Below are positions 1-48,493 of a stretch of 48,493 nt of DNA, piece by piece. The translations under genes were made by a program, and so were the position numbers. The notes under the pieces were generated by a model. The model was given only the letters and a program-made list of their open reading frames with translations. It did no database searches and was not told the DNA's origin. The DNA is from Prochlorococcus sp. AG-402-B05 (GTDB lineage Bacteria; Cyanobacteriota; Cyanobacteriia; PCC-6307; Cyanobiaceae), in contig QCHK01000012.1 in the NCBI GenBank assembly GCA_003279635.1, positions 1 through 48,493 of the forward strand, read 5' to 3'. Each line of letters starts with the position of its first letter. Position 1 is the first letter of the stretch.

Positions 1-97
1 GTTCCTGAGTTGGCATTGTGTTTGCACATGCTCCAGAGTGAATTGAATCTACATTCTTTCCCTTTCTTCGGCTTCTCTCTCTTCTTCCTTTTTTTTA

Positions 98-592
98 TCA
101 GGATAGTTTTTCATTTTCAGTTTCAGTTTTATTTTTATTTTTATTTATAATTAGTAATGATTGATTATTATTTAACTTAAATCCTAATTGTTTATAAAAC
201 TCGGAACTATTAGTAGTCATTAAGTAGATTTTTTCAACAGATTGAATTTTTTTATTTGTTAAAATTGCTTCTGTTATTAGCTTGCCATACCCAAGACCTT
301 GACGATCTGAAGCAACAACTACATCCCATAGTACAGCCCTGAAAACAAGATCACTTGTTGCTCGGCCAAAACCTATTAATTGATTGCGATACCAAAGGCT
401 CACTACAACTGTGCTATTAGAGAGCATTTTGCAAATTTGTTGTTTATTTCTATCCTTAGCCCAAAAAGTGTTTTCATTAAGAAAAGATTGAAGTTTTTCT
501 AAGCCATTTGTTGGTGTCAGCCTAGGACCTATACCTAAAAGACGAAGTCCAGGGGCAGTTGGAGCATGTTTAACTAGTGATATTACATTCAT
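98..592 (-). CDS. GNAT family N-acetyltransferase
   Basis: A 164-residue protein with the GNAT acetyl-CoA-binding motif A visible as RQGLGYGK (about residues 97-104), preceded by the beta-4 strand (LWDVVVASD) and followed by the typical C-terminal YKQLGF turn (about residues 133-138). Family members transfer an acetyl group from acetyl-CoA to an amine; the substrate cannot be told from sequence. The last 15 residues are a low-complexity Asn/Lys/Glu tail that may not belong to the fold. It is transcribed away from the methyltransferase remnant. Bases 1-97 beyond its stop hold nothing I can call. Confidence 0.8.
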   Translation of the reverse strand: MNVISLVKHAPTAPGLRLLGIGPRLTPTNGLEKLQSFLNENTFWAKDRNKQQICKMLSNSTVVVSLWYRNQLIGFGRATSDLVFRAVLWDVVVASDRQGLGYGKLITEAILTNKKIQSVEKIYLMTTNSSEFYKQLGFKLNNNQSLLIINKNKNKTETENEKLS

Positions 593-819
593 TAAAAATT
601 ATTTAAGATCTCTAGTTCTTTAATACTACTTCTATAAGGATTCATTTTTATATTCCCAATTTTAGAATAATGATTTCAAAGATTTAAATATTCGTTTGGA
701 TGTCAATCGTATTTCTATCCCTAGACTAGTACTATGAGTATATTGTCTGATTGTTTAGATTTATTTTTAATAATCAGAAATCGTATGAATTTTAGGTTCT
801 AAATTAAATTGATTGCTAA

Positions 820-1560
820 TTATGGATTCAGAAATATAATGCAACGGGTTTTAAATCTATAGGTCTAGAGTTAGAGCCTAAGATGGTCAATGATTGTAAG
901 AAATTAAATCTGAATATTAAACACAAAGATGCCTTATTATTATTAGATGAATTTAGTAGAAATAGCTTTTCTAGAGTTAGTACTTTTCATGTTATTGAGA
1001 ATATAAATCATGAAAATATTAAAGAACTCCTGAGCAAATGTAAGCGAATTTTAAAGCCTGATGGGTTACTTATTCTAGAGAAAACTAGTATAGATAATCT
1101 TATCGTTTCTTCTAAATCTTTTTATGTAGATCCAACTCATATCAATCCAATTCATCCTGATTGATGAGCTTTTATGATGAAAAGAGCTAGCTTTACTCAA
1201 TTTAAATACTATTTCATAAATGGCGGCCCATTACAGAATTCTGAGGCTGATTTGTTGACAAGGGTATTCAATTTCGTCGCCCAGGATCTTGTATTGATAG
1301 GCTCTAAGTCTAATATTTTAGACAATTCAATTTTTGATAATGTGAACCTTTTCAAAAGCGATATGAGCTTAGGTATAACTTCACTAGAGGCAGCAATTGA
1401 TTTTGATTATTATTCAAGGAAGCGATACGCTCAATATGATGAAGCTATTTTTAGAGTCTTGCTTGATTATATGATCAATTTTAGAGGTATTTTTACTGCT
1501 AGACCTCCTTATTATTCCATTAACGATATATCCTTTTTTATAAGTAGTTCAGATAAATAA
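820..1560 (+). pseudogene. Decayed SAM-dependent methyltransferase (surface-glycan type)
   Basis: One reading frame, open except for stops at about 1162-1167, carries remnants of a class I methyltransferase. There is a post-I acidic strand (GFKSIGLELEP before 883), then a DAL motif, FHVIENI for the usual FHVIEHL, and ILKPDGLLILE for motif post-III, then YVDPTHINPIHP. After two adjacent TGA stops the same frame continues with LTRVFNFVAQDLVLIG, the usual last strand, and about 70 further residues. The N-terminal glycine-rich SAM loop is missing and no start codon or Shine-Dalgarno site is seen. In cyanobacteria this protein type usually sits in glycosyltransferase and polysaccharide clusters. 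I read it as one broken gene rather than two small genes. The stretch 593-819 upstream is AT-rich with nothing recognised. Confidence 0.7.
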
Positions 1561-1801
1561 CTTCTGTCCTGTCCTGTAATTAATGCTATTTTACCTTCCT
1601 TAACTTGTATCAGGCTTAAATTTTCATTGTACTTTATAGTCTGGATTAAATTAATCTCTAGACAATAACTGCTCAATAGTCTATTTAAAATTTGACCTAT
1701 TTAGCCCTCTCTGTGCGTCAAAGTAATCTGTTAGAAAAATTTCTTATATCCAATTTCAATAGCGTAAAATATAAAAACATAATGTTTCGATCAAATAGTT
1801 A
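1561..1801 (+). promoter_or_regulatory. Leader and promoter region of secA
   Basis: About 240 AT-rich bases separate the methyltransferase remnant from secA. No gene is seen. AT-rich hexamers resembling -10 boxes lie around 1765-1785 (for example TAAAAT), so the secA promoter probably lies here, but I cannot fix the start site. Confidence 0.35.
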
Positions 1802-4624
1802 ATGCTGAAACGAATTCTTGGTGATCCAAATGCTCGTAAGTTGCGGAGGTATGCTCCAATTGTTTCCGATATTAATATTCTTGAAGAAGATTATGCCTCT
1901 CTTTCAGATGATGGACTTAGAAGTCGAGTAGGAGAGTTTCGCTTAAAACTTGAAAAAGCTAGTCAATCTTCTTCCGAGCTTTCATTAATGGATGATTTGC
2001 TTCCTGATGTGTTTGCTGTAGTCAGGGAAGCTTCAAAAAGAGTTTTAGGAATGCGGCATTTTGATGTGCAGTTAATGGGGGGGATGGTTTTGCATGAAGG
2101 GCAGATAGCGGAAATGAAAACTGGCGAGGGCAAGACTCTAGTCTCTACTTTGCCAACATTCTTGAATGCGTTAACGGGAAAAGGTGTACACGTAGTGACT
2201 GTGAATGATTACCTTGCTCGACGTGATGCGGAATGGATGGGACAGATACATCGTTTTTTAGGCCTTTCGGTAGGTTTAATTCAGCAAGATATGCTCCCTC
2301 AAGTTCGTCGAAAAAATTATTTGTGTGATATTACCTATGCGACTAATTCAGAATTAGGTTTTGATTATCTTAGAGATAATATGGCCGCAACTTCAGATGA
2401 AATAGTTCAAAGATCTTTTCAGTTTTGTGTAATTGATGAAGTTGATTCGATTCTTATAGATGAAGCTAGGACTCCACTAATCATTTCAGGTCAGGTTGAA
2501 CGACCTCAAGAAAAATATCAAAAGGCTGCATTGGTTGTAGATAAACTAATTAGATCTAAAGAACTTTCAAAAGATGGAGTAGATCCAGAAGGGGATTATG
2601 AAGTAGATGAAAAACAAAGAAGTTGCATACTTACAGACGAGGGTTTTGCTAAAACAGAGAAACTTTTAAAGGTTAATGATTTGTTTGATCCCAAGGATCC
2701 TTGGGCACATTATGTTACTAATGCTCTTAAAGCTAAAGAACTTTTTACGTTAGATACTAACTATATAATTAGAGATGGTGAGGCGGTCATAGTGGATGAA
2801 TTTACTGGAAGAGTTATGCCAGGTAGAAGATGGAGCGATGGTCAACATCAAGCTATTGAGGCAAAAGAAAAACTTGCAATCCAACCAGAAACTCAAACTC
2901 TTGCTTCGATAACGTATCAAAATTTCTTTCTTCTTTATCCTCGTTTATCTGGAATGACAGGGACAGCAAAAACGGAAGAAGTTGAGTTTGAGAAAACGTA
3001 TAAATTGCAAACTACAGTAATACCTACAAATAGAAAAATTTCTCGGGAAGATTGGACTGATCAAGTCTTCAAGACAGAAACAGCGAAATGGAGAGCTGTT
3101 GCAAAAGAAATTTCTGCAATACATCAAAAAGGAAGACCCGTACTTGTTGGAACAACGAGCGTTGAAAAAAGTGAATTGATTAGTGCTCTTTTAGAAGAAG
3201 AGCAAATACCACACAATTTGTTAAATGCTAAGCCAGAAAATGTTCAGAGAGAAGCTGAAATTGTCGCTCAAGCGGGGAGGTCTGGAGCTGTAACTATTGC
3301 TACGAATATGGCGGGTAGAGGTACGGACATAATACTTGGTGGAAATAGTGATTATATGGCTAAATTAAAAATTAAAGAATTACTGAGTTCTCGATTAATT
3401 AAACCTGAAGAGGGACATAAACCACCTATTCCTTTGCAAAGGACAAATGAATCCGTCGGATTTCAAGAAACTGATAAAAAACAAAAAAAGAATACCAGTC
3501 AAAATTCTCTAAATAAATTATTTCCAGTAGCTTTGTCAGATGAAACAGATAAAGAACTTGCTAACTTAATATCTTCTTTGGTTAAGTCTTGGGGCGATAG
3601 AACTCTCACCTCGATTGAATTAGATGATCGAATTGCAACTGCAGCGGAGAGAAGTCCTACAGAAGATAAGGACATTATTTCTTTAAGACAAGCTATTAAT
3701 TTAATTAAAGCTGAATATCAAGATGTTATTAAAGATGAAGAGAAAAATGTTCGAGATGTTGGAGGATTACATGTTATTGGTACTGAAAGGCATGAATCGA
3801 GAAGAGTTGATAATCAACTTAGAGGAAGATCAGGAAGACAGGGTGATTTTGGAAGTACAAGATTTTTCTTGTCTCTAGAAGACAATCTACTGAGGATATT
3901 TGGAGGAGATAGAGTTGCAAGTCTTATGAATGCATTCAGAGTCGAAGAAGATATGCCAATTGAATCAGGAATGCTTACTCGTTCATTAGAAGGAGCACAA
4001 AAAAAAGTTGAAACTTATTATTATGATATTAGAAAACAAATTTTTGAATATGATGAGGTAATGAATAATCAAAGGAAAGCTGTTTACACTGAGAGAAGAA
4101 GAGTTTTAGAAGGTAAAGAATTAAAATTACAAGTTTTAGGATATGGTGAACGTACAATGGAGGAGATAGTAGAGGCATATGTTAACGAGGATCTTCCTCC
4201 AGAAGAATGGGATTTAGAAAAGTTAGTTTTAAAGGTTAAAGAATTTATATATTTATTAGAAGATTTAAAGCCAAATGACTTACTAATATTAAATATTGAG
4301 GGATTAAAAAATTACTTAAAAGAAGAATTAAGAAATGCATATGATTTAAAGGAAGCCCAAATTGAAGATTCTCATCCAGGGATGATGCGTGAGGCTGAAA
4401 GATTTTTTATTCTTCAACAACTTGATACTTTGTGGAGAGAGCATTTGCAGTCGATGGATTCTTTGCGCGAATCAGTTGGCCTTAGAGGATATGGACAAAA
4501 AGATCCTTTAATTGAATATAAAAATGAGGGTTATGATATGTTTTTAGAAATGATGATTAATATGAGAAGAAATGTTATTTATTCAATGTTTATGTTTCAG
4601 CCAGCTAAGAAAAGTACTGAATGA
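1802..4624 (+). CDS. secA: Preprotein translocase ATPase SecA
   Basis: SecA is the motor that drives unfolded precursors through the SecYEG channel of the plasma and thylakoid membranes. The 940-residue length matches cyanobacterial SecA. Visible are the Walker A motif GEGKTLVS near residue 108, the [15 protein letters not shown] motif (Walker B-type helicase II), the preprotein cross-linking domain, the second helicase core with [10 protein letters not shown] and [11 protein letters not shown], and the helical scaffold and wing with [10 protein letters not shown]. The C-terminal SecB/zinc-binding CxC-CH finger of many bacteria is absent: the protein ends at [12 protein letters not shown] lysine-rich, probably flexible insertion sits around residues 545-575. 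The gene stands alone between two decayed loci. Confidence 0.98.
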
Positions 4625-4645: not shown

Positions 4646-5110
4646 ATGGAAGTTGATTCTAAAAAATTAGAAGAGTTATATATTGCTTTTTCCCCCTACC
4701 AGATGATCTGCCTGGAATTCAAAATTGGCTTTTGAAGGCTGCTAAAGGAGTTACGTTAAGAAAAATAGCCTGTCATTTATCTATGCAAGATGAATATAAA
4801 AAATCTAAAATTTATGCTAAATCTTTAGATTTAAAAATAAATCAATTGTATCTAAATTTGTTTAGTCAAAAGGTTGATTTTGCAGGATTAAGTTATTGGT
4901 TAAGATCAATTAAAACGGGTTCTCATGATATTTCAGATTGAGCGTGTGATTTAATTGGATCATTATCAAATCAAGACTAAGTATTCCTGAGCAGTAGATA
5001 ATTGATAGAAAAGCTTTAGACAATAAGGTTAATTCAGCTGAAGAATTAGCGTCAACAATTAATGTATTAAGTTTATATCAACCTTCTGCTGTGAATCCTT
5101 GGATTTCTGG
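4646..5110 (+). pseudogene. Decayed DUF4214-type protein
   Basis: A start ATG follows secA by 21 bases, but the frame is lost near 4691 in a T/C homopolymer run. Reading on in the next frame gives PDDLPGIQNWLLKAAKGVTLRK, then about 60 residues ending LYLNLFSQKVDFAGLSYWL and KTGSHDIS, the signature of DUF4214 (a leucine-tyrosine repeat with D-x-AGL-x-YW). A TGA at 4939 interrupts it and the same frame continues with CDLIGSLSNQ before another stop. A shifted frame near 5030-5105 adds NSAEELASTINVL and PSAVNPWISG. DUF4214 domains occur in secreted and surface proteins. At least one frameshift and two stops make it non-functional. Confidence 0.65.
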
Positions 5111-42151: not shown

Positions 42152-42225
42152 GGGGCTGTAGCTCAGTTGGATAGAGCGACGGTTTCCTAAACCGTAGGCC
42201 GCGTGTTCAAGTCCCGCCAGCCCCG
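42152..42225 (+). tRNA. tRNA-Arg (CCU)
   Basis: A 74-base cloverleaf: acceptor GGGGCTG pairs with CAGCCCC, D arm GCTCAGTTGGATAGAGC, anticodon stem ACGGT/ACCGT with loop TTCCTAA (anticodon CCT, reading AGG), T loop TTCAAGT, discriminator G and no encoded CCA. The T stem GCGTG/CCCGC has one U-C mismatch (position 52-62). It is the presumed integration site of the element to its right. Confidence 0.95.
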
Positions 42226-42233
42226 TGTTCAAG
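42202..42233 (+). repeat. Ten-base direct repeat at the tRNA 3' end
   Basis: CGTGTTCAAG occurs at 42202-42211, in the T arm of the tRNA, and again at 42224-42233, immediately after the acceptor stem. The second copy begins the DNA that leads into the recombinase. It may mark the left junction of the integrated element, but its role is not proven. Confidence 0.5.
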
Positions 42234-42310
42234 AAAGCACTGATAGGCACTGCATTACTAAGGTTTTGCAAGATTTGCCCATGTTAACTCGTAAGGTTGA
42301 CTTAATGTCA

Positions 42311-42374
42311 TTTCGCGTCTTTTCGCGTATATTCGCGTAAGAAATCGGTCAACATTTGGTCAACGGTGGTCAGC
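42311..42374 (+). promoter_or_regulatory. Two sets of helically phased repeats before the recombinase
   Basis: Three near-identical TTTCGCGT units start at 42311, 42321 and 42331 (period 10; the third is ATTCGCGT). Just beyond, GGTCAAC occurs at 42347 and 42358 and GGTCAGC at 42368 (period 10-11). A reverse copy, GGTTGAC, is at 42295-42301. Spacing of one helical turn between a tRNA attachment site and a recombinase gene fits recombinase arm sites or an operator. The last two units overlap the first codons of the annotated frame if the TTG start is used. Confidence 0.55.
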
Positions 42375-43525
42375 AAATAAAAAAAGACTTTGAGGAAAAA
42401 AATGCCTTTGGTTTGCAGGACCAACGGCTGGAACTTCTTAATGTCAGGTTAAAAGAAAGAGGAATTAAGTTCCGGGTTGAACGCGTTAGACAAGCGTTAT
42501 TTGTTCGAGGTACTTTCCTGTTTAGTGATGCAACTAGAAAACGAACAAGAATAAGACTTGGACTAAAAGCTTTAGTTGTAGAAAACGAATTTTCGGTAGT
42601 TGAAAATAGAGCAATTCAACTGGAATCCAAAATCAAAAAGTTGGGACATGTACCGGATGAGGAGGAATGGTGGATCGCTCCCTTTGAAGTTAAAAAAAGA
42701 AATACTACAAAGACAGTAAAAGAAGCAGTTGTAGAGCTTGAGCAAGATTTCTGGGATGGCAGAACAAAAACATCTGCAGCTGAGAGAACTTGGGACAGAA
42801 TGAACGACCACTACAAGAAACTTCCTCCTGGTGCTGTTTTAACTACTGACCTATTGCTGGGTCATATAGAAGCAACTGAAGAGGGATCTAATGCACGAGT
42901 AAAAAGCTGCCAATATTTAAAACGCCTGGGCAAGTTCCATGATCTAAAAGAACTTTCCAAAATTGATCCATTAGTAGGAAGTTATGAACCAAAAGCCCCC
43001 ACAATTCCAGATGAAGAACATCTTCAAGAATTGGTAGAAATTCTCCGAAATGAGAAGAAATGGGGTTGGTGTTTCGCTGCTCTCTATCTCTACGGTTGTA
43101 GGCCTAGTGAAGTCTTCAGCCTTCAAGTTAAAGAAGATGGAATAGCAAAAGTCCTAACTCTAAAACGAAAGAAAAAGAATCCTAAGTGGAGGACAACTTT
43201 AGCCCTGCCGCAGCACTTGGTTAATCGACTGGATCTGCATGATGTATCGAAGCCTTATGAGGTTAATAAGGTTGAGGAATACGATTCAAAACATGCCGCA
43301 TATCTTGTGAACGCATGGGGTAAATGGTTCCGTAAAAGAAGAGGCCACTTAGATTGTTCTCTTTACGATATACGCCACTCTTGGGCTATTAGATCTCTTA
43401 AAAGGAATATGGAAACAGGGCTAGCAGCAACTTGCATGGGGCATGATATTTCCACGCATGTATCAACTTACTTAGGAGGATTACAGGAGAAAGATATAAT
43501 AGAAGCGGCTAAAAATTTAAGTTAA
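42356..43525 (+). CDS. Tyrosine recombinase (integrase) of a tRNA-Arg element
   Basis: A 389-residue site-specific tyrosine recombinase. The N-terminal half (LNVRLKERGIKFRVERVRQA, RTRIRLGLKALVVENE) looks like an arm-binding and core-binding region. The catalytic domain has the first Arg in LYLYGCRPSEVF, the box-II tetrad as YDIRHSWAIR (Tyr 337 replaces the usual His, Arg 340), His 363 in MGHDISTH and the nucleophile Tyr 372 in STYLGGL. It would cut and join att DNA at the adjacent tRNA. The start is uncertain: the first codon of the open frame is TTG at 42356, other in-frame choices are TTG 42413, and no good Shine-Dalgarno site is seen. Family assignment to the tycheposon recombinases is inferred from context. 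Confidence 0.9.
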   Translation: MVNGGQQIKKDFEEKNAFGLQDQRLELLNVRLKERGIKFRVERVRQALFVRGTFLFSDATRKRTRIRLGLKALVVENEFSVVENRAIQLESKIKKLGHVPDEEEWWIAPFEVKKRNTTKTVKEAVVELEQDFWDGRTKTSAAERTWDRMNDHYKKLPPGAVLTTDLLLGHIEATEEGSNARVKSCQYLKRLGKFHDLKELSKIDPLVGSYEPKAPTIPDEEHLQELVEILRNEKKWGWCFAALYLYGCRPSEVFSLQVKEDGIAKVLTLKRKKKNPKWRTTLALPQHLVNRLDLHDVSKPYEVNKVEEYDSKHAAYLVNAWGKWFRKRRGHLDCSLYDIRHSWAIRSLKRNMETGLAATCMGHDISTHVSTYLGGLQEKDIIEAAKNLS

Positions 43526-43540
43526 AGGCATTATAGATTC

Positions 43541-45367
43541 ATGAAACGCTTACTTCTTTTAGCATTAATATTTGGTTTCCCTTCTAATGCTTTAGCCTCA
43601 GCAGAACGAGAGAGAATTGAAAATTGGTTTGACGATAAATACTGGTATGAGGAGATTGGCAGGCCTGAGACTGATGCTGCATGTGAATTAGAACAATTAG
43701 AAAAAGGCATTTATAATCCTGAGATTTGCAGGGTAAAAAAAAATGCAAAGTCTATTAAATTCGATGCTGATTCATCGCGGGCAATTTGGTGTGAAGGCTT
43801 CATCAACTCAAGTTTTTATGGTTTAGAAAACGTTAGAAATTCATCTGATATAAAAAAAGACTGCAAAAGAATCTTTAATACTTATATTTATGATCCTTCT
43901 TTTACATTTCCCTTCCAACCTTCATATATAAGCTTTGCAATAGGTGAAGATTTACCTTTTTATAAAGGGAAGTATAAAGATGGGGAAAAGCATGGGAAAG
44001 CAACATATTATTATAAAGATGGAAGTATATTTAATGGCAAATATAAGGAAGGTAAAAAAGATGGAAAAGGTGCTTATGTTTGGTCAGATGGAGAGAAATA
44101 TATAGGTGATTGGAAAGATGATAAAATAGATGGAAAAGGTACTTATCTTTGGTCAGATGGATCGCAATATATAGGAGATTGGAAAGATGATAAATTATAT
44201 GGGAAAGGTGCTTTTTATTATGAGAACGGAACTCAATATATAGGAGATTGGAAAGATGATAAAAAAGATGGTAAAGGTACTTATATATTTGCAAGTGGAA
44301 ATAAATATATAGGAGATTGGAAAGATGATAAAAAAGATGGTAAAGGTACTTTTATTTGGTCAGATGGAGATAAATATATAGGAGATTGGAAAGATGATAA
44401 CAGGCATGGTAAAGGTACTTTTTATCGGAAGAATGGAAATAAATATATAGGAGATTGGAAAGATGATAATAGGCATGGTAAAGGTACTTATTTAACAAAA
44501 ACTGGAGAGAAATTTATAGGAGAGTTTAAAAATAATAACAGGCATGGACAGGGAATTATTTATGATAAAAATAAAAATATTGTCGGACAGGGAATATGGG
44601 AAAATGATCAATTTATAACATCTAAAGTAATTGATGTAAAATCATTACTTTCTTCTAAAAAATCAAATAATAGTTCTAGTAATAATAGACATAAAGAATG
44701 TTTAAAAGCAGCAGATTATCAAGGCTGTATGAATTACACTCAAGGATCTAAAGTTATTCCAAAAGATAATAATTCAGAAAATAAATATTCTAAAAGAAAT
44801 TGTGTAGACTATTGGTGCAATGTTCTGCCAGAAGAAGAATTAGATTTCTTTGGTATGAGAATGCCTCAAAATTATAGTTATAAAATATATGAGGAAGGTC
44901 CAGAGATACTCTATACAAGTAATAATTATTTTAAACTTAGGGTTCCTGAAAGAGAAGATGGAAGATATCTAGTAAAGAAGCTTTTCGCCAGGAAATATAT
45001 CCCCCCTAAAGCAGGTAGTCCTGGTTATCAATCTAATTCCTTTAATTGTTATGGAAATGATGGTTCTATGAATTGTTATTCAGGTTTAAATTTACCTGGA
45101 ACTCCTTCTCAACCCGGTGGTGTTGATATTATAAGCTTTGAAACTGTAATTGATTGTCAAGATAGAACTGACAGAGGTTATTGGTTAGAAGAACGACAAT
45201 GGGTTAGGAAATGGGAACCGTTAAGTGAAAATGAAAGATCTTATGAGTTATGTAATAAAGATATTCAATGGAGACGTTCGTTAAAGCCGTCTAAATTAAC
45301 TAAATTTGAAAAAAGAGGTATAGGCAAAAGAGATCGCAACAGAAGAATAACGGGACCTGATGATTGA
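43541..45367 (+). CDS. Secreted MORN-repeat protein
   Basis: A 608-residue protein with a signal peptide (MKRLLLLALIFGFPSNALA), a cysteine-containing N-terminal part of about 120 residues, then about nine MORN repeats of 23 residues (about 140-345). A typical unit is KYIGDWKDDKKDGKGTY. The C-terminal part has further cysteines, including CLKAADYQGCM, a motif I associate with exported marine cyanobacterial proteins, and a basic end. MORN repeats often bind lipids or act as structural surfaces; no enzyme domain is seen. The gene begins 15 bases after the recombinase and ends 23 bases from the convergent terminase-like gene. I regard it as element cargo, function unknown. Confidence 0.75.
   Translation: MKRLLLLALIFGFPSNALASAERERIENWFDDKYWYEEIGRPETDAACELEQLEKGIYNPEICRVKKNAKSIKFDADSSRAIWCEGFINSSFYGLENVRNSSDIKKDCKRIFNTYIYDPSFTFPFQPSYISFAIGEDLPFYKGKYKDGEKHGKATYYYKDGSIFNGKYKEGKKDGKGAYVWSDGEKYIGDWKDDKIDGKGTYLWSDGSQYIGDWKDDKLYGKGAFYYENGTQYIGDWKDDKKDGKGTYIFASGNKYIGDWKDDKKDGKGTFIWSDGDKYIGDWKDDNRHGKGTFYRKNGNKYIGDWKDDNRHGKGTYLTKTGEKFIGEFKNNNRHGQGIIYDKNKNIVGQGIWENDQFITSKVIDVKSLLSSKKSNNSSSNNRHKECLKAADYQGCMNYTQGSKVIPKDNNSENKYSKRNCVDYWCNVLPEEELDFFGMRMPQNYSYKIYEEGPEILYTSNNYFKLRVPEREDGRYLVKKLFARKYIPPKAGSPGYQSNSFNCYGNDGSMNCYSGLNLPGTPSQPGGVDIISFETVIDCQDRTDRGYWLEERQWVRKWEPLSENERSYELCNKDIQWRRSLKPSKLTKFEKRGIGKRDRNRRITGPDD
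44036..44590 (+). repeat. Tandem 69-bp repeats encoding MORN units
   Basis: GGAGATTGGAAAGATGATAA (or a one-base variant) recurs with exact 69-base spacing: at 44105, 44174, 44243, 44312, 44381, 44450 and 44519 (last copy diverged). Copies are nearly identical at DNA level, suggesting recent expansion or gene conversion within the coding region. Confidence 0.9.
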
Positions 45368-45390
45368 GGTATGAAAATTTTGGATAGCGA

Positions 45391-45840
45391 CTAAGCCATA
45401 TCGACAACTCTGCCTCCTTCAATTGCGTGCAGCATTTCTCTGATTTCCTTCAGGCTCTCAGCTTGCTCTCTATCTACTACGCCTTTATCGATAATTCGGA
45501 ATACTGCCTCACAAGCACCAACAGCGGTGTATCCCTTTGTTTTTCGGTCCAGGGCAAGTTCAATCAATCGCTCAGCAACTTTTGTTGCGCTAGCAATAAG
45601 AACACTGTGGGAAGTATCTAGATTTTCTTGGGTTACTTGTTGTAGAAAATCTGTTGCTGCTGGATTGCCTGCAACCCATCTTCTTAACTTCTCGTACTTC
45701 ATGTTCGCAAGCTGTGCAGAGTCCTTCCAAGTCTTGCCCTGAGATCGATAGACCAATGCTTGCTTTACATCTTCAGCAAGTGGAGATTCTGCAATTGGAG
45801 GTCTTCCCCTCCCCTCTCTTTTGCCATAAGAAATGCTCAT
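45391..45840 (-). CDS. Small terminase subunit-like protein (TerS)
   Basis: A 149-residue protein with the layout of phage small terminases: an N-terminal helix-turn-helix (about residues 18-60: ESPLAEDVKQALVYRSQGKT, WKDSAQLANMKYEKLRRWVA), a central helical oligomerisation region (SHSVLIASATKVAERLIELA) and an acidic C-terminal tail (about 120-149). In phages it recognises the pac site and starts packaging together with the large subunit. No large subunit is in the window. It is the last gene of a tight operon: its ATG overlaps the stop of the gene upstream (TAATG), and GGAG lies seven bases before it. The family call rests on fold pattern and context, not on a search. Confidence 0.6.
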   Translation of the reverse strand: MSISYGKREGRGRPPIAESPLAEDVKQALVYRSQGKTWKDSAQLANMKYEKLRRWVAGNPAATDFLQQVTQENLDTSHSVLIASATKVAERLIELALDRKTKGYTAVGACEAVFRIIDKGVVDREQAESLKEIREMLHAIEGGRVVDMA

Positions 45841-46316
45841 TAATTCTCCCAGGAAGCTTGTCCTGATAATCCATAAGCTGCTCGATTTCGTGCAATTGCT
45901 TCCGCAGATAGTGGTTCTGCAAATGCAAGCCCTTTGGGCCTTTCTCTGTTGTAAGCAGCAACTTGATCATTCTTAGCTGCCATTTCAGCAAGATCTTTTT
46001 CGATCATTGTTTGCTTTGCTTCATCAATAGCTTTTTTCATGTTTGCTGCTGTTCCTGTAAAACCTGCATCCTCCAAAATTTGAACATCTGATACCCACTG
46101 GATCCCTTTCCTATATCGCTGGGAAACGTCAGCAGGTAGCTCGCTTGGATCTGGATTACATAGGTTTTGATATAGGTGGGGAGCTTTATCCTGCATTAAC
46201 AGTTGCTCATCCAGTCCCATATCTTTCTTGGACTTTGGTAGCTTTCCGATAGGTAGCCCTGCTTCGGTGCAGAACTTTATGTACTCTTCGGTGTAGTCAA
46301 CTTTCGCAAAATTCAT
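45840..46316 (-). CDS. Unknown protein of the terminase-like operon
   Basis: A 158-residue, soluble, mostly helical protein with no motif I recognise. It starts MNFAKVDYTEEYIKFCTEAG, has a central Lys/Glu-rich helix (AANMKKAIDEAKQTMIEKDLAE) and ends QASWEN. The start is one base after the stop of the zinc-ribbon-like gene, and the end overlaps the next ATG. It is therefore co-translated with the terminase-like protein and could act with it in packaging or its control. That is inference from position. Confidence 0.6.
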   Translation of the reverse strand: MNFAKVDYTEEYIKFCTEAGLPIGKLPKSKKDMGLDEQLLMQDKAPHLYQNLCNPDPSELPADVSQRYRKGIQWVSDVQILEDAGFTGTAANMKKAIDEAKQTMIEKDLAEMAAKNDQVAAYNRERPKGLAFAEPLSAEAIARNRAAYGLSGQASWEN

Positions 46317-46317
46317 G

Positions 46318-46551
46318 TTAATAATAGAGAACTACTGGGTGGTTTTTATTCCGTAAAGTTTCCATCAAATTAGGTGAGCGAGTATCTCTTTGATGTTCAG
46401 GAGATAGACCAGTTTGATTCCATTTAAGATAGGCATGTTCTGCCCATACATAAGCTCGTTTTGGATTATGTGGAAAAAGTTGATTACCACATTTTACGCA
46501 GCGAGTTTGCCTGCTCCACTCCTCTATGTCGAAATCATCTTCTCTCTCCAT
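46318..46551 (-). CDS. Small protein with CxxC zinc-ribbon-like motif
   Basis: A 77-residue protein with CVKCG near residue 18 and a later His-rich region (WAEHAYLKWNQTG, SPEHQRD). It could be a degenerate zinc ribbon with CC/HH ligands, but only one Cys pair is seen. It begins the three-gene reverse operon. No Shine-Dalgarno site precedes the ATG. It is too small to name. Confidence 0.5.
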   Translation of the reverse strand: MEREDDFDIEEWSRQTRCVKCGNQLFPHNPKRAYVWAEHAYLKWNQTGLSPEHQRDTRSPNLMETLRNKNHPVVLYY

Positions 46552-46887
46552 AACATTAGATATTAATAATTAATATTAGCTCAAATTTTACTTTTATAAG
46601 TTTATCTTCTATATTTTTCTTGCCTTAGTTATCACTTTAGGTTATTATTTTATTTAGCAAGGTTCTCGGGACGCGGTTAGTAATAGTCATAGTTCGCAAC
46701 CTCTACCCCTAGTAATACTAATATTTTGATTGTTAATAAGTAGAGCAAATTGTATAAGGTATTGTGAAGTTAATTTTGTAAAGATTAAAAGGAAATAAGT
46801 GTCAATTTCGCGAAACGACTTCTTAAAATGCCAATTATAGGAAGTCGCTCTCTCTATATGGCTTCTTAGTTTATTTAATTCTTATTT
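46552..46887. promoter_or_regulatory. Divergent control region between operon and second recombinase
   Basis: These 336 AT-rich bases separate the reverse operon from the forward recombinase gene and must hold both promoters. A perfect palindrome TTTCGCGAAA is at 46806-46815, sharing the TTTCGCG core with the repeats before the first recombinase. Next to it CGACTTCTT (46816-46824) faces AGGAAGTCG (46839-46847), an inverted repeat with a 14-base loop. These are candidate regulator binding sites. No gene is seen. Confidence 0.45.
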
Positions 46888-47463
46888 ATGAAGGTCAATC
46901 GAAATGGCCAATCAAAATGTTTAACCAAGAAACAGTTGGATCTGTTAGTTGAAGAACTTCCACCTGGAACTCATACAGTTCTAGCTATGGTCCTTCGCAA
47001 AACAGCTGCCAGAGTTTCTGAAGGTAGGTCTTTGGTTTGGTCATGCATATCTGAAAATTCAATTTTATTTCCTAAAGGAATCTGCAAAGGAAAGCTCAAG
47101 TCTCGCGAAGTTCCAATTGGACCTGAGCTATATCTAATCCTTAAAGATTGGAGAATAAAATGGTATGAAATTAATTCAAGAAAAGCAGAACCAAATGATT
47201 TTATTTTTCCTGGAAGATTCTCAGATAAGCCTATAACTTCAAGAGCATTTGACTTGGCCCTGCGTGCCGCTGCTGAAAGGCTAAATCTTCAAGGTGTTAG
47301 TACACATAGTTTTAGAAGAAGCGCGCTTTCAAGCTCATCTAATGCAGGGACGCCTCTTAGGCATCTTCAGGAGCTAAGTGGTCATTCTAATCTCGGAACT
47401 CTGCAGAAATATCTGGAAGTTGATGAACAATCAAAGCGCAAAGCTGCAATGAGCTTCGCATAA
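46888..47463 (+). CDS. Minimal tyrosine recombinase (catalytic domain only)
   Basis: A 191-residue protein with a complete catalytic set but no N-terminal DNA-binding domain. It has Arg 42 in LRKTAARVSEGRSL, KGKLKSREVPIGP (the beta-hairpin Lys), His 140 and Arg 143 in THSFRRSALS, His 166 in LSGHSNLGTLQ and Tyr 175 in QKYLEVD. Unlike the first recombinase it has the standard HxxR box. Small recombinases of this form can serve resolution of circular elements or DNA inversion; the target is unknown. The ATG at 46888 lacks a clear Shine-Dalgarno site. It is followed by the convergent coiled-coil protein. Confidence 0.85.
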   Translation: MKVNRNGQSKCLTKKQLDLLVEELPPGTHTVLAMVLRKTAARVSEGRSLVWSCISENSILFPKGICKGKLKSREVPIGPELYLILKDWRIKWYEINSRKAEPNDFIFPGRFSDKPITSRAFDLALRAAAERLNLQGVSTHSFRRSALSSSSNAGTPLRHLQELSGHSNLGTLQKYLEVDEQSKRKAAMSFA

Positions 47464-47553
47464 TTAGTGGCAAAGATTCTAATTGTATTGGAGCAGCTAT
47501 TAAAGGGCCGACTTTCTCCTATTAATGTGCGATTCGGTCCTATTGAATTGATT

Positions 47554-47757
47554 TTAGTTTTTGATGGTCCAGGCTGGTCTTTCTTCAATGTTGATAATGA
47601 GGTCATATATACCAATTTCTTCAGATAAAGTGAGTTCTTCTCCTTTGTTCTGATCCACAACATGAACACTTAATGAAGGTGGATTTACTTGCCTTCGCAA
47701 TTGTTTGATCCTCATCCGTAGACGTTCAATCTCTTTATCAAGACCCATAGCAAACAA
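47554..47757 (-). CDS. Small basic coiled-coil protein
   Basis: A 64 to 67-residue protein beginning with a basic coiled-coil segment (LDKEIERLRMRIKQLRRQV), then SLSVHVVDQNKGEELTLSEE and a final strand-like part. The first codon is TTG (47757), with AGGA suitably placed before it; an ATG at 47748 is the alternative. It could be an accessory replication or DNA-binding protein, since it sits between a recombinase and a probable replication origin. The function is not established. Confidence 0.5.
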   Translation of the reverse strand: MFAMGLDKEIERLRMRIKQLRRQVNPPSLSVHVVDQNKGEELTLSEEIGIYDLIINIEERPAWTIKN

Positions 47758-47814
47758 GTTTTTTCCTACAGCTATTCTACGTTTTCTAAATGCTAAAAAA
47801 TCGACTTAATTAGT

Positions 47815-48060
47815 CCCGGACAAATGCCCGGACAAGTTTATTTATTTCTTCAAAAGGCCTGGTAATAAAGCTCTCGGACAAGTCGGACAAGTCGGACAGG
47901 CATATTCTCTATCTATATCTAATTACAGCCCTGCGTGTTTCTCCTAACCACTCTTATTTATTAACTCTATTTCCTTTAAAAAAGATTCTGTCCGGGGTGT
48001 CCGGAGTGTCCGGAGTCAATAGATAAAAGAGGTTAGTAGCTGTTAGGCGAAATAGTCCGG
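47815..48060. repeat. CGGACA iteron array, probable replication origin
   Basis: The gene-free stretch 47758-48088 holds nine copies of a CGGACA-type unit. Forward copies: CCCGGACAA at 47815 and 47827, then three exact-period 9-base units TCGGACAAG at 47874, 47883 and 47892 (last ends AGG). Reverse copies: TGTCCGG at 47989, 47998 and 48007 (again period 9), and AGTCCGG at about 48054. Two converging triplets flank about 88 AT-rich bases. This is the design expected of iterons with a DNA-unwinding region, next to a primase-helicase gene. Confidence 0.7.
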
Positions 48061-48088
48061 ATGCGTTTCGGGATGTTCCGACCCCCGT

Positions 48089-48493
48089 CTATTCCTCTTT
48101 TTGTGAGTATTTAACAAGTGCTTCAATTGATGGACGAGCAGCCTGGTGATTTTTTAATTCAATCCAACCTCCCTCTTTATATTTGGGCATTATTTCAGGA
48201 TCATAAGTACCAAGATTATTAGTATCTCCACGGACGTTAAAACCAAATAAACAAGGATTGATTTTTTTCGTTGAGTTAGTTCCGGGAACTGAAATCCGCC
48301 CTGTTACCAAGTGGGGAAGTGCTTGTTTGAGTCTGTTTAAAAGTGTTTGCTGCGTGCATGGCTTGTTGTATCCGTGATCCCGGCAGAACTTTATGTAGTG
48401 CTGGTATAGCTCTCTTTTGTCCGGGAGGAAATCAACTGATTGTGCAGGCATGAGGCAATGATCAATAAAACCTCTTACTGGATCCATATCTAC
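48089..48493 (-). CDS. Primase-helicase (P4/D5 type), C-terminal part
   Basis: Reverse-strand frame open from the window edge to a stop at 48089; the gene's 5' part lies beyond 48493. The visible 134 residues match the C-terminal region of phage and plasmid D5/P4-type primase-helicases: DPVRGFIDHCLM, LYQHYIKFCRDHGYNKPCTQ, LLNRLKQALPHLV and a late PCLFGFNVRG. In phage P4 this end of the alpha protein binds the origin iterons. Here the iteron-like array lies immediately 3' of the gene. The apparent Met at 48487 is probably internal, because the frame continues upstream of it. Confidence 0.75.
   Translation of the reverse strand, partial: VDMDPVRGFIDHCLMPAQSVDFLPDKRELYQHYIKFCRDHGYNKPCTQQTLLNRLKQALPHLVTGRISVPGTNSTKKINPCLFGFNVRGDTNNLGTYDPEIMPKYKEGGWIELKNHQAARPSIEALVKYSQKEE

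Follow-up and report, generated by a model that had tools for sequence, protein, structure and literature searches.

The right-hand end of contig QCHK01000012.1 of Prochlorococcus sp. AG-402-B05 holds the left part of an integrative mobile element of approximately 10.1 kb, inserted in the anticodon stem-loop of a tRNA-Arg(CCT) gene, which by its architecture is likely to be a satellite of the tycheposon type. The stretch analysed (the window) is the entire contig (C12; 48,493 bp), one of 62 in a genome assembly of 1.76 Mb, and it is because the window is the whole of this contig that it ends within the element's primase gene. Both ends of the element, an empty site in relatives, an open frame for its large tyrosine recombinase (INT1) and a tRNA gene that is kept whole can all be read from the sequence; the element is bounded, looks intact, and is probably functional. 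The initial annotation of the window had proposed a tycheposon-like element integrated at a tRNA gene, and was right in its essentials: the tRNA-Arg gene, two recombinases, repeat protein, operon with a gene resembling that for a small terminase subunit (TerS), iterons and primase end that it listed are all present in the sequence.

A second contig of this genome, C31 (8907 bp; L005), when searched with the DNA of positions 42152-48493, matched the tRNA-Arg gene in its 3' half over 48 bp (92% identity). On C31 the N-terminal part of the primase-helicase gene, three small genes, the tRNA copy and then core host genes follow in that order. The remainder of the primase-helicase gene and a second tRNA-Arg 3' end, both of which the initial annotation had proposed to look for to the right of position 48493, are thus found on C31. 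The two primase parts are collinear on a single homologue of 944 residues from locus L095 (its residues 66-749 and 817-939), and about 67 primase residues, or 0.2 kb, are unassembled between the two contigs. The length of the element given above runs from the left attachment site (attL) to the end of the right one (attR) and includes this gap, the share of C31 being L005:1-3630. Past attR, one host gene was judged by eye to be glycogen-phosphorylase-like. All 11 predicted genes of the element are open frames, the assembly gap in the primase excepted, and both ends are intact.

The sequence that follows attR is present in 34 of 41 genomes of the genus, including that of AG-402-B05 itself, and a whole tRNA-Arg(CCT) gene was found at each of the 12 loci examined from 12 other genomes that carry it. 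When attL, attR and three empty sites (from genomes G002, G036 and G007) were aligned, an 18 nt block (the shared core of Table 1) was identical in all five sequences, and immediately after it attL departs from attR and the empty sites, which places the crossover in the anticodon stem-loop. Within the tRNA gene, attR and the three empty sites agree save at one position, itself variable among the empty sites. Beyond the core, it is the element that provides the 3' half of the present tRNA gene, and the gene with this half is still called valid by ARAGORN. Integration in a tRNA gene with a flanking direct repeat, as in tycheposons, is therefore seen here.

PHROG and Pfam scans of the eight window proteins reported no family of large terminases, portals or capsids, and the same holds for the four element proteins of C31 in Pfam and for its three small proteins in PHROGs, in agreement with the initial annotation, which had described an element with no structural phage genes. 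The gene content suggests a cycle in which INT1 would integrate and excise the element; the primase-helicase would recognize CGGACA iterons through its C-terminal domain and replicate the excised circle, as the alpha protein of phage P4 does at crr; and TerS would direct the large terminase and capsid of a helper phage to the element DNA, a parasitism that we infer because the scans showed neither a large terminase gene nor virion genes in the element. A second, small recombinase (INT2) would, if this cycle holds, probably resolve or make multimers for packaging, which is its weakest step.

Table 1. Features of the element in the window (contig C12) and on contig C31
Feature	Position	Strand	Evidence or remarks
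tRNA-Arg(CCT), integration target	42152..42225	+	ARAGORN
attL	42181-42228		Within/around tRNA-Arg(CCT); shared core 42181-42198 in anticodon stem-loop
INT1, 389-aa tyrosine recombinase adjoining tRNA	42356..43525	+	phrog_1 integrase, 7.6e-12
Cargo: signal peptide, MORN repeats, C-terminal domain	43541..45367	+	PF02493, 2.3e-46, nine stretches
TerS-like protein, probable small terminase subunit (helix-turn-helix and long helices)	45391..45840	-	AlphaFold2; Foldseek/VIA; PHROG matches of relatives
P158, conserved helical protein of TerS operon	45840..46316	-	
P77, conserved small protein	46318..46551	-	CxxC motif in window copy
INT2, 191-aa catalytic-domain-only tyrosine recombinase	46888..47463	+	PF00589, 1.1e-24; divergent from TerS operon
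P67, small conserved protein	47554..47757	-	
Iteron array, candidate replication origin	47817..48012	.	8 CGGACA/TGTCCG sites
PrimPol/D5 primase-helicase, C-terminal 134 residues	48089..48493	-	Pox_D5, 3.1e-6
Primase-helicase, first 730 residues	C31 (L005) 2-2191	-	Open at left contig end
Three small genes, 66, 133 and 110 aa	C31, between primase and tRNA copy		110-aa product is helix-turn-helix protein P110
attR	C31:3583-3630		Second copy of tRNA-Arg 3' end

The TerS-like gene lies in a reverse operon (45391-46551) whose genes touch one another. An AlphaFold2 model of its 149-residue product, built with 13 sequences and having a mean predicted local distance difference test score of 84.9, contains a helix-turn-helix (HTH) and two long helices. 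In a structure search against the PDB the top match was the phage protein phBC6A51, with the TerS proteins of PaP3, Sf6 and NV1 at ranks 9, 10 and 13 (probability up to 0.99), and VIA placed 2ao9 first (Z 6.7) and, from third place on, the TerS proteins of NV1, E217, Sf6 and PaP3 (Z 4.8-4.9). Among viral predicted structures (BFVD), 11 of the 50 matches shown bear the name terminase small subunit, and relatives of the protein match TerS PHROGs, the commonest being phrog_7344 (4 of 21 relatives; best 6.4e-8).

Several observations weigh against this identification and against the satellite reading as a whole. No PDB match to the model reached an E-value of 0.001 (best 3.6e-2), and the best VIA score lies inside the range of which that tool warns, an unrelated chain coming second (Z 5.7). 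The window protein itself had no TerS family match in the PHROG and Pfam scans, and 10 of 21 relatives match a PHROG family named transposase. P110 also matches a TerS PHROG (3e-5, over its HTH region), so an HTH alone can drive such matches. Searches of viral contigs (IMG/VR) with the single TerS and INT1 proteins and with a TerS alignment confirmed no relative, INT2 gave there only 15 distant matches, and neither TerS nor INT2 had a match in phage records. The recombinase of a presumed nitrate-reductase element (discussed below) was not reported by a profile of the INT1 clade at E-values up to 10. Taking the predicted fold together with the profile matches of relatives, we consider it fairly likely that the gene encodes a TerS, as the initial annotation had suggested and as stands with these caveats; the two lines of evidence argue with moderate strength for the packaging gene of the satellite forms of tycheposons. 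P158 gave no useful match in PHROG, Pfam or structure searches, nor did its relatives in PHROGs and Pfam, and its best VIA score (Z 4.1, to a P22 portal helix) was not taken as meaningful.

The competing explanation that survives best is that of a plasmid-like or cargo-bearing integrative element, replicating and passing between cells by other means such as vesicles or transformation, in which the TerS-like protein is a mere HTH regulator of its operon. It draws on the HTH families that match several TerS relatives, on the transposase and P110 matches noted above, on the lack of any large terminase or virion family in the scans of element proteins, and on the failure of scans of viral collections to yield any close relative; it is at odds with the position of four named TerS proteins near the top among solved structures, with the BFVD matches, and with the strength of the PHROG matches of some relatives, and we regard it as unlikely. 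That the element is a decayed or domesticated island, formerly mobile and now fixed, is less probable still. Genome G039 retains at the same site a mere remnant of approximately 2.5 kb, with a recombinase 56% identical to INT1, and a number of TerS matches elsewhere are truncated or contain stops, whereas the element itself has open genes and intact ends, and a genome whose downstream flank is 95% identical lacks it altogether, its site being empty. A prophage remnant stripped of virion genes would also have an integrase, a primase and a TerS-like gene, and is highly improbable given that elements of 8-10 kb at several tRNA genes repeat this compact set of genes, so that a small size seems to be typical of them and not a product of decay.

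The element has relatives in other picocyanobacteria. Relatives of the TerS-like protein are present in 57 of 400 genomes of the family, its own included; 40 loci around TerS matches were fetched and profiled, and contain 38 TerS genes of at least 100 amino acids. P77 is found near 18 of these, P158 near 15 and P67 near 27, and 20 have a small recombinase (150-235 amino acids) within 5 kb, one of which faces away from TerS in every case. Relatives keep this module (TerS-P158-P77, the small recombinase and P67) at other tRNA genes and at a transfer-messenger RNA (tmRNA) gene. A second piece of the tRNA or tmRNA gene, of at least 34 bp, is held by 18 of 25 loci that bear such a gene, a count in which L102 and L116 are one genome and in which not every pair brackets an element; the spans between paired tRNA pieces are 8.2-10.1 kb in L092, L101, L104, L115, L116, L117, L119 and L127. 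TerS, the small recombinase and the primase are what the satellite-like elements of these abundant marine phototrophs keep, and the cargo, the large recombinase and the tRNA site are what they exchange. With both ends, the empty site, a candidate origin, a likely packaging gene and a cargo slot now defined, a bounded element that shares its gene order with others makes integration, origin recognition and packaging testable with defined parts, and its complete anatomy and conserved second recombinase are worth following.

Some relatives depart from this arrangement. In L092, L115, L117, L119 and L127 it is the 5' half of the tRNA (Ser or Arg-TCT) that is duplicated. These elements therefore lie on the 5' side of the tRNA and supply the region upstream of it, in contrast to the insertion at tRNA-Arg(CCT), which involves the 3' half. 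Of the 18 TerS genes that have no small recombinase, eight have P67 nearby and form a second type of TerS locus (L076, L077, L078, L080, L081, L082, L084 and L089), with a tRNA-Pro gene called in L076, L077, L078 and L089. The genome of AG-402-B05 itself carries a second element of the family beside a tmRNA gene (L090; G000:C3:1-18000), with genes for the primase, P67, small recombinase, P77, P158 and TerS; the tmRNA pieces there are only 19-20 bp and lie at the contig start.

The small recombinase is conserved in its presumed active site as well as in its position. Six residues of INT2 (R42, K67, H140, R143, H166 and Y175) are invariant in all 11 sequences compared and stand in what we take to be the places of the catalytic residues; its nearest solved structures are integrases and XerD, and it is so short that there is no room for an N-terminal domain. 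A pattern scan of a collection of 84,980 species genomes yielded 43 confirmed INT2 loci, all from genera that we understand to be cyanobacterial. TerS profile matches lie near INT2 in ten of these, all titled Prochlorococcus or Synechococcus, and one further, weak match (1e-8) in L128, another Synechococcus. INT2 might conceivably be a packaging-stage recombinase that makes or resolves multimers so that TerS-directed packaging fills the helper capsid, a suggestion that we put forward as doubtful. If true, the life cycle of the satellite would involve two recombinases, one acting at the tRNA site and the other on the circle, and such a cycle would be conserved among elements that occupy several tRNA genes in picocyanobacteria. 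A role for INT2 as an invertase acting at a nearby promoter was also considered and set aside, the inverted repeats near it being short or imperfect.

The replication module combines a primase-helicase, the replication gene expected of a tycheposon, with a dense array of iterons. The protein has a PrimPol domain (match to 6zp9, 5.7e-10), a D5_N domain in its C31 part (2.1e-7) and a Walker A motif; the D5_N and Pox_D5 matches are both above curated cut-offs, and a weak match of the C-terminus to an RFX-type DNA-binding domain (1.6e-4) is under its cut-off. The iterons form two facing groups approximately 90 nt apart, past the 3' end of the primase gene. Eight of the 16 CGGACA/TGTCCG sites in the window fall within 200 bp, whereas the largest cluster in 2000 random placements of 16 sites was four. 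Comparison of 12 loci suggests that array and C-terminal domain go together: a C-terminal domain like that in the window is found in L095 (43.5% identity) and L098 (44.3%), over 131 amino acids, and the CGGACA motif is clustered in L095, L098 and L091. The contig of L091 ends before the primase gene, and its iteron region is 93% identical in DNA to that of L095, for which reason its cluster is not an independent case. The N-terminal part alone matches in L090, L105, L111, L112, L116, L118, L120 and L127, L107 has no match, and the cluster is absent from all nine of these loci, which lack a C-terminal domain like that in the window. L124, L118 and L120 share contigs with L098, L105 and L111, respectively, so that independent cases are few. 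The array is a candidate origin, which the C-terminal domain of the primase may bind. Five CGGACA sites in a short stretch also occur in an unrelated viral contig (L163). Further candidate repeats, located in relatives in the stretch from P67 to the primase, were in many instances within the range of shuffled sequence, and are not claimed.

The match of INT1 to the Pfam integrase family (0.0032) is under that family's cut-off. In a recombinase tree INT1 belongs to a clade of element recombinases at tRNA-Arg and tRNA-Ser genes (support 100/98; 10 rows). Several branches of the tree are long, including the row of the nitrate element described below, and the midpoint root serves for display alone; the branch with the large recombinases on one side and the reference and small recombinases on the other has support of 92/91, below star level. 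The sister of the INT1 clade (100/99) is a 386-aa tyrosine recombinase (G000:C2:86946-88103; also L010, L011 and L016) that is near-universal in the family (278 of 300 genomes and 192 of 196 good ones, each genome in the rows listed having a single match), and which may be a core recombinase sharing ancestry with the element integrases.

Tycheposons were reportedly described by Hackl and colleagues in Cell in 2023. Three further papers refer to them second-hand (PMC10872708, PMC11389934, PMC10187409). Their tyrosine recombinases are deep-branching, and tycheposons excise, reinsert and occur in phage particles or vesicles. The element shares with them a picocyanobacterial host, insertion at a tRNA with a direct repeat, a cargo slot, and genes for a tyrosine recombinase, a replication protein and a TerS-like protein; the kind is thus already known, and the element would be a further member of it by architecture. 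A direct comparison is offered by genome G374, in which two copies of a 16.5-kb element (G374:C1:1075772-1092325 and 1290010-1306564; 99.8% identical) carry a molybdopterin oxidoreductase gene, presumed to encode a nitrate reductase; one copy lies at tRNA-Pro with a 46-bp repeat, and further tRNA-like pieces lie beyond. This is probably the published tycheposon of strain MIT0604. In common with the AG-402-B05 element it has a gene for an HTH protein like P110 (4e-4) and a D5 match, albeit a weak one (1e-4), and it differs in giving no match for TerS, P158, P77 or a short INT2. INT1 lies in a different subclade (100/98), distant from the nitrate-element recombinase. A profile of eight large element recombinases matched the latter at 3.7e-52 and INT1 at 1.8e-10, and did not report XerD, lambda Int or P4 Int at E-values up to 10, and the profile of the INT1 clade, in a comparison from which the core390 recombinase was left out, matched 14 further large recombinases from elements (9.7e-13 to 4.7e-5). 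Judged by these two profiles, INT1 belongs only distantly, if at all, to the group that holds the nitrate-element recombinase. An earlier INT1 profile that matched this recombinase at 8.8e-76 had drifted to mixed large integrases and was discarded.

Other satellites share parts of this plan. As in P4-like satellites, the element has a superfamily 3 helicase (similar to alpha, 8.5e-9), and its iterons lie directly past the 3' end of the primase gene, just as the crr repeats lie directly past the 3' end of alpha in P4; it differs in that the primase part matches the PrimPol (archaeo-eukaryotic primase) domain and in carrying a TerS-like gene, and no sid, delta or psu family, through which P4 controls capsids, was found in the eight window proteins and three small C31 proteins. 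Phage-inducible chromosomal islands (PICI), including those of the Staphylococcus aureus pathogenicity island (SaPI) type, likewise combine an integrase, a primase-helicase and a TerS of their own, and their transfer is induced by a helper phage. The DNA primase chain 7ola, presumably a SaPI enzyme, matches the element's primase (0.0027), and no PICI regulator or capsid-remodelling homologue was identified in the element. According to PMC10803314, the phage-inducible chromosomal minimalist island (PICMI) is a small marine element with an integrase, the small regulator alpA and a primase, lacks capsid genes, is integrated at fis, and was found by its authors to have no terS homologue. The AG-402-B05 element is like it in being small and marine and in having an integrase and a primase with no capsid genes, and unlike it in lying at tRNA-Arg and in carrying a TerS-like gene. 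PMC10187409 describes a picocyanobacterial element whose integrase lies close to tRNA-Phe or tRNA-Cys and is often accompanied by a small serine recombinase; the likeness is a picocyanobacterial tyrosine integrase near a tRNA gene, and the element described here differs in its tRNA-Arg site and small tyrosine recombinase.

The gene between INT1 and TerS is, from its position, the cargo, as is found in tycheposons. It contains 69-nt tandem repeats, and its MORN protein, which has a signal peptide as judged by eye, is probably exported. The initial annotation had called it cargo not typical of known cases; cargo it is, and untypical only in part, since its residues 384-599 are similar (4e-17) to a PDZ-domain protein that occupies the corresponding place between INT1 and TerS in element L119. 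This C-terminal domain is common to other picocyanobacterial proteins, and gave no Pfam match in the two proteins scanned. Partial matches to the whole protein occur in 12 of 400 genomes, its own included, at E-values of 1e-10 or better. Four loci with MORN repeats (L199-L202) had no TerS or INT2 match, and of seven loci with a match to the C-terminal domain (L192-L198) two had an INT1-profile match and none a TerS match. In two of the latter the domain is common to neighbouring genes (L192:9745 and 10851; L193:139 and 1185). In L198 (G016:C23) the gene order is a mirror image, with INT1 at 1534 and 15795 and the gene for the cargo domain at 4900 and 12921; this inverted duplication is perhaps an amplification artefact.

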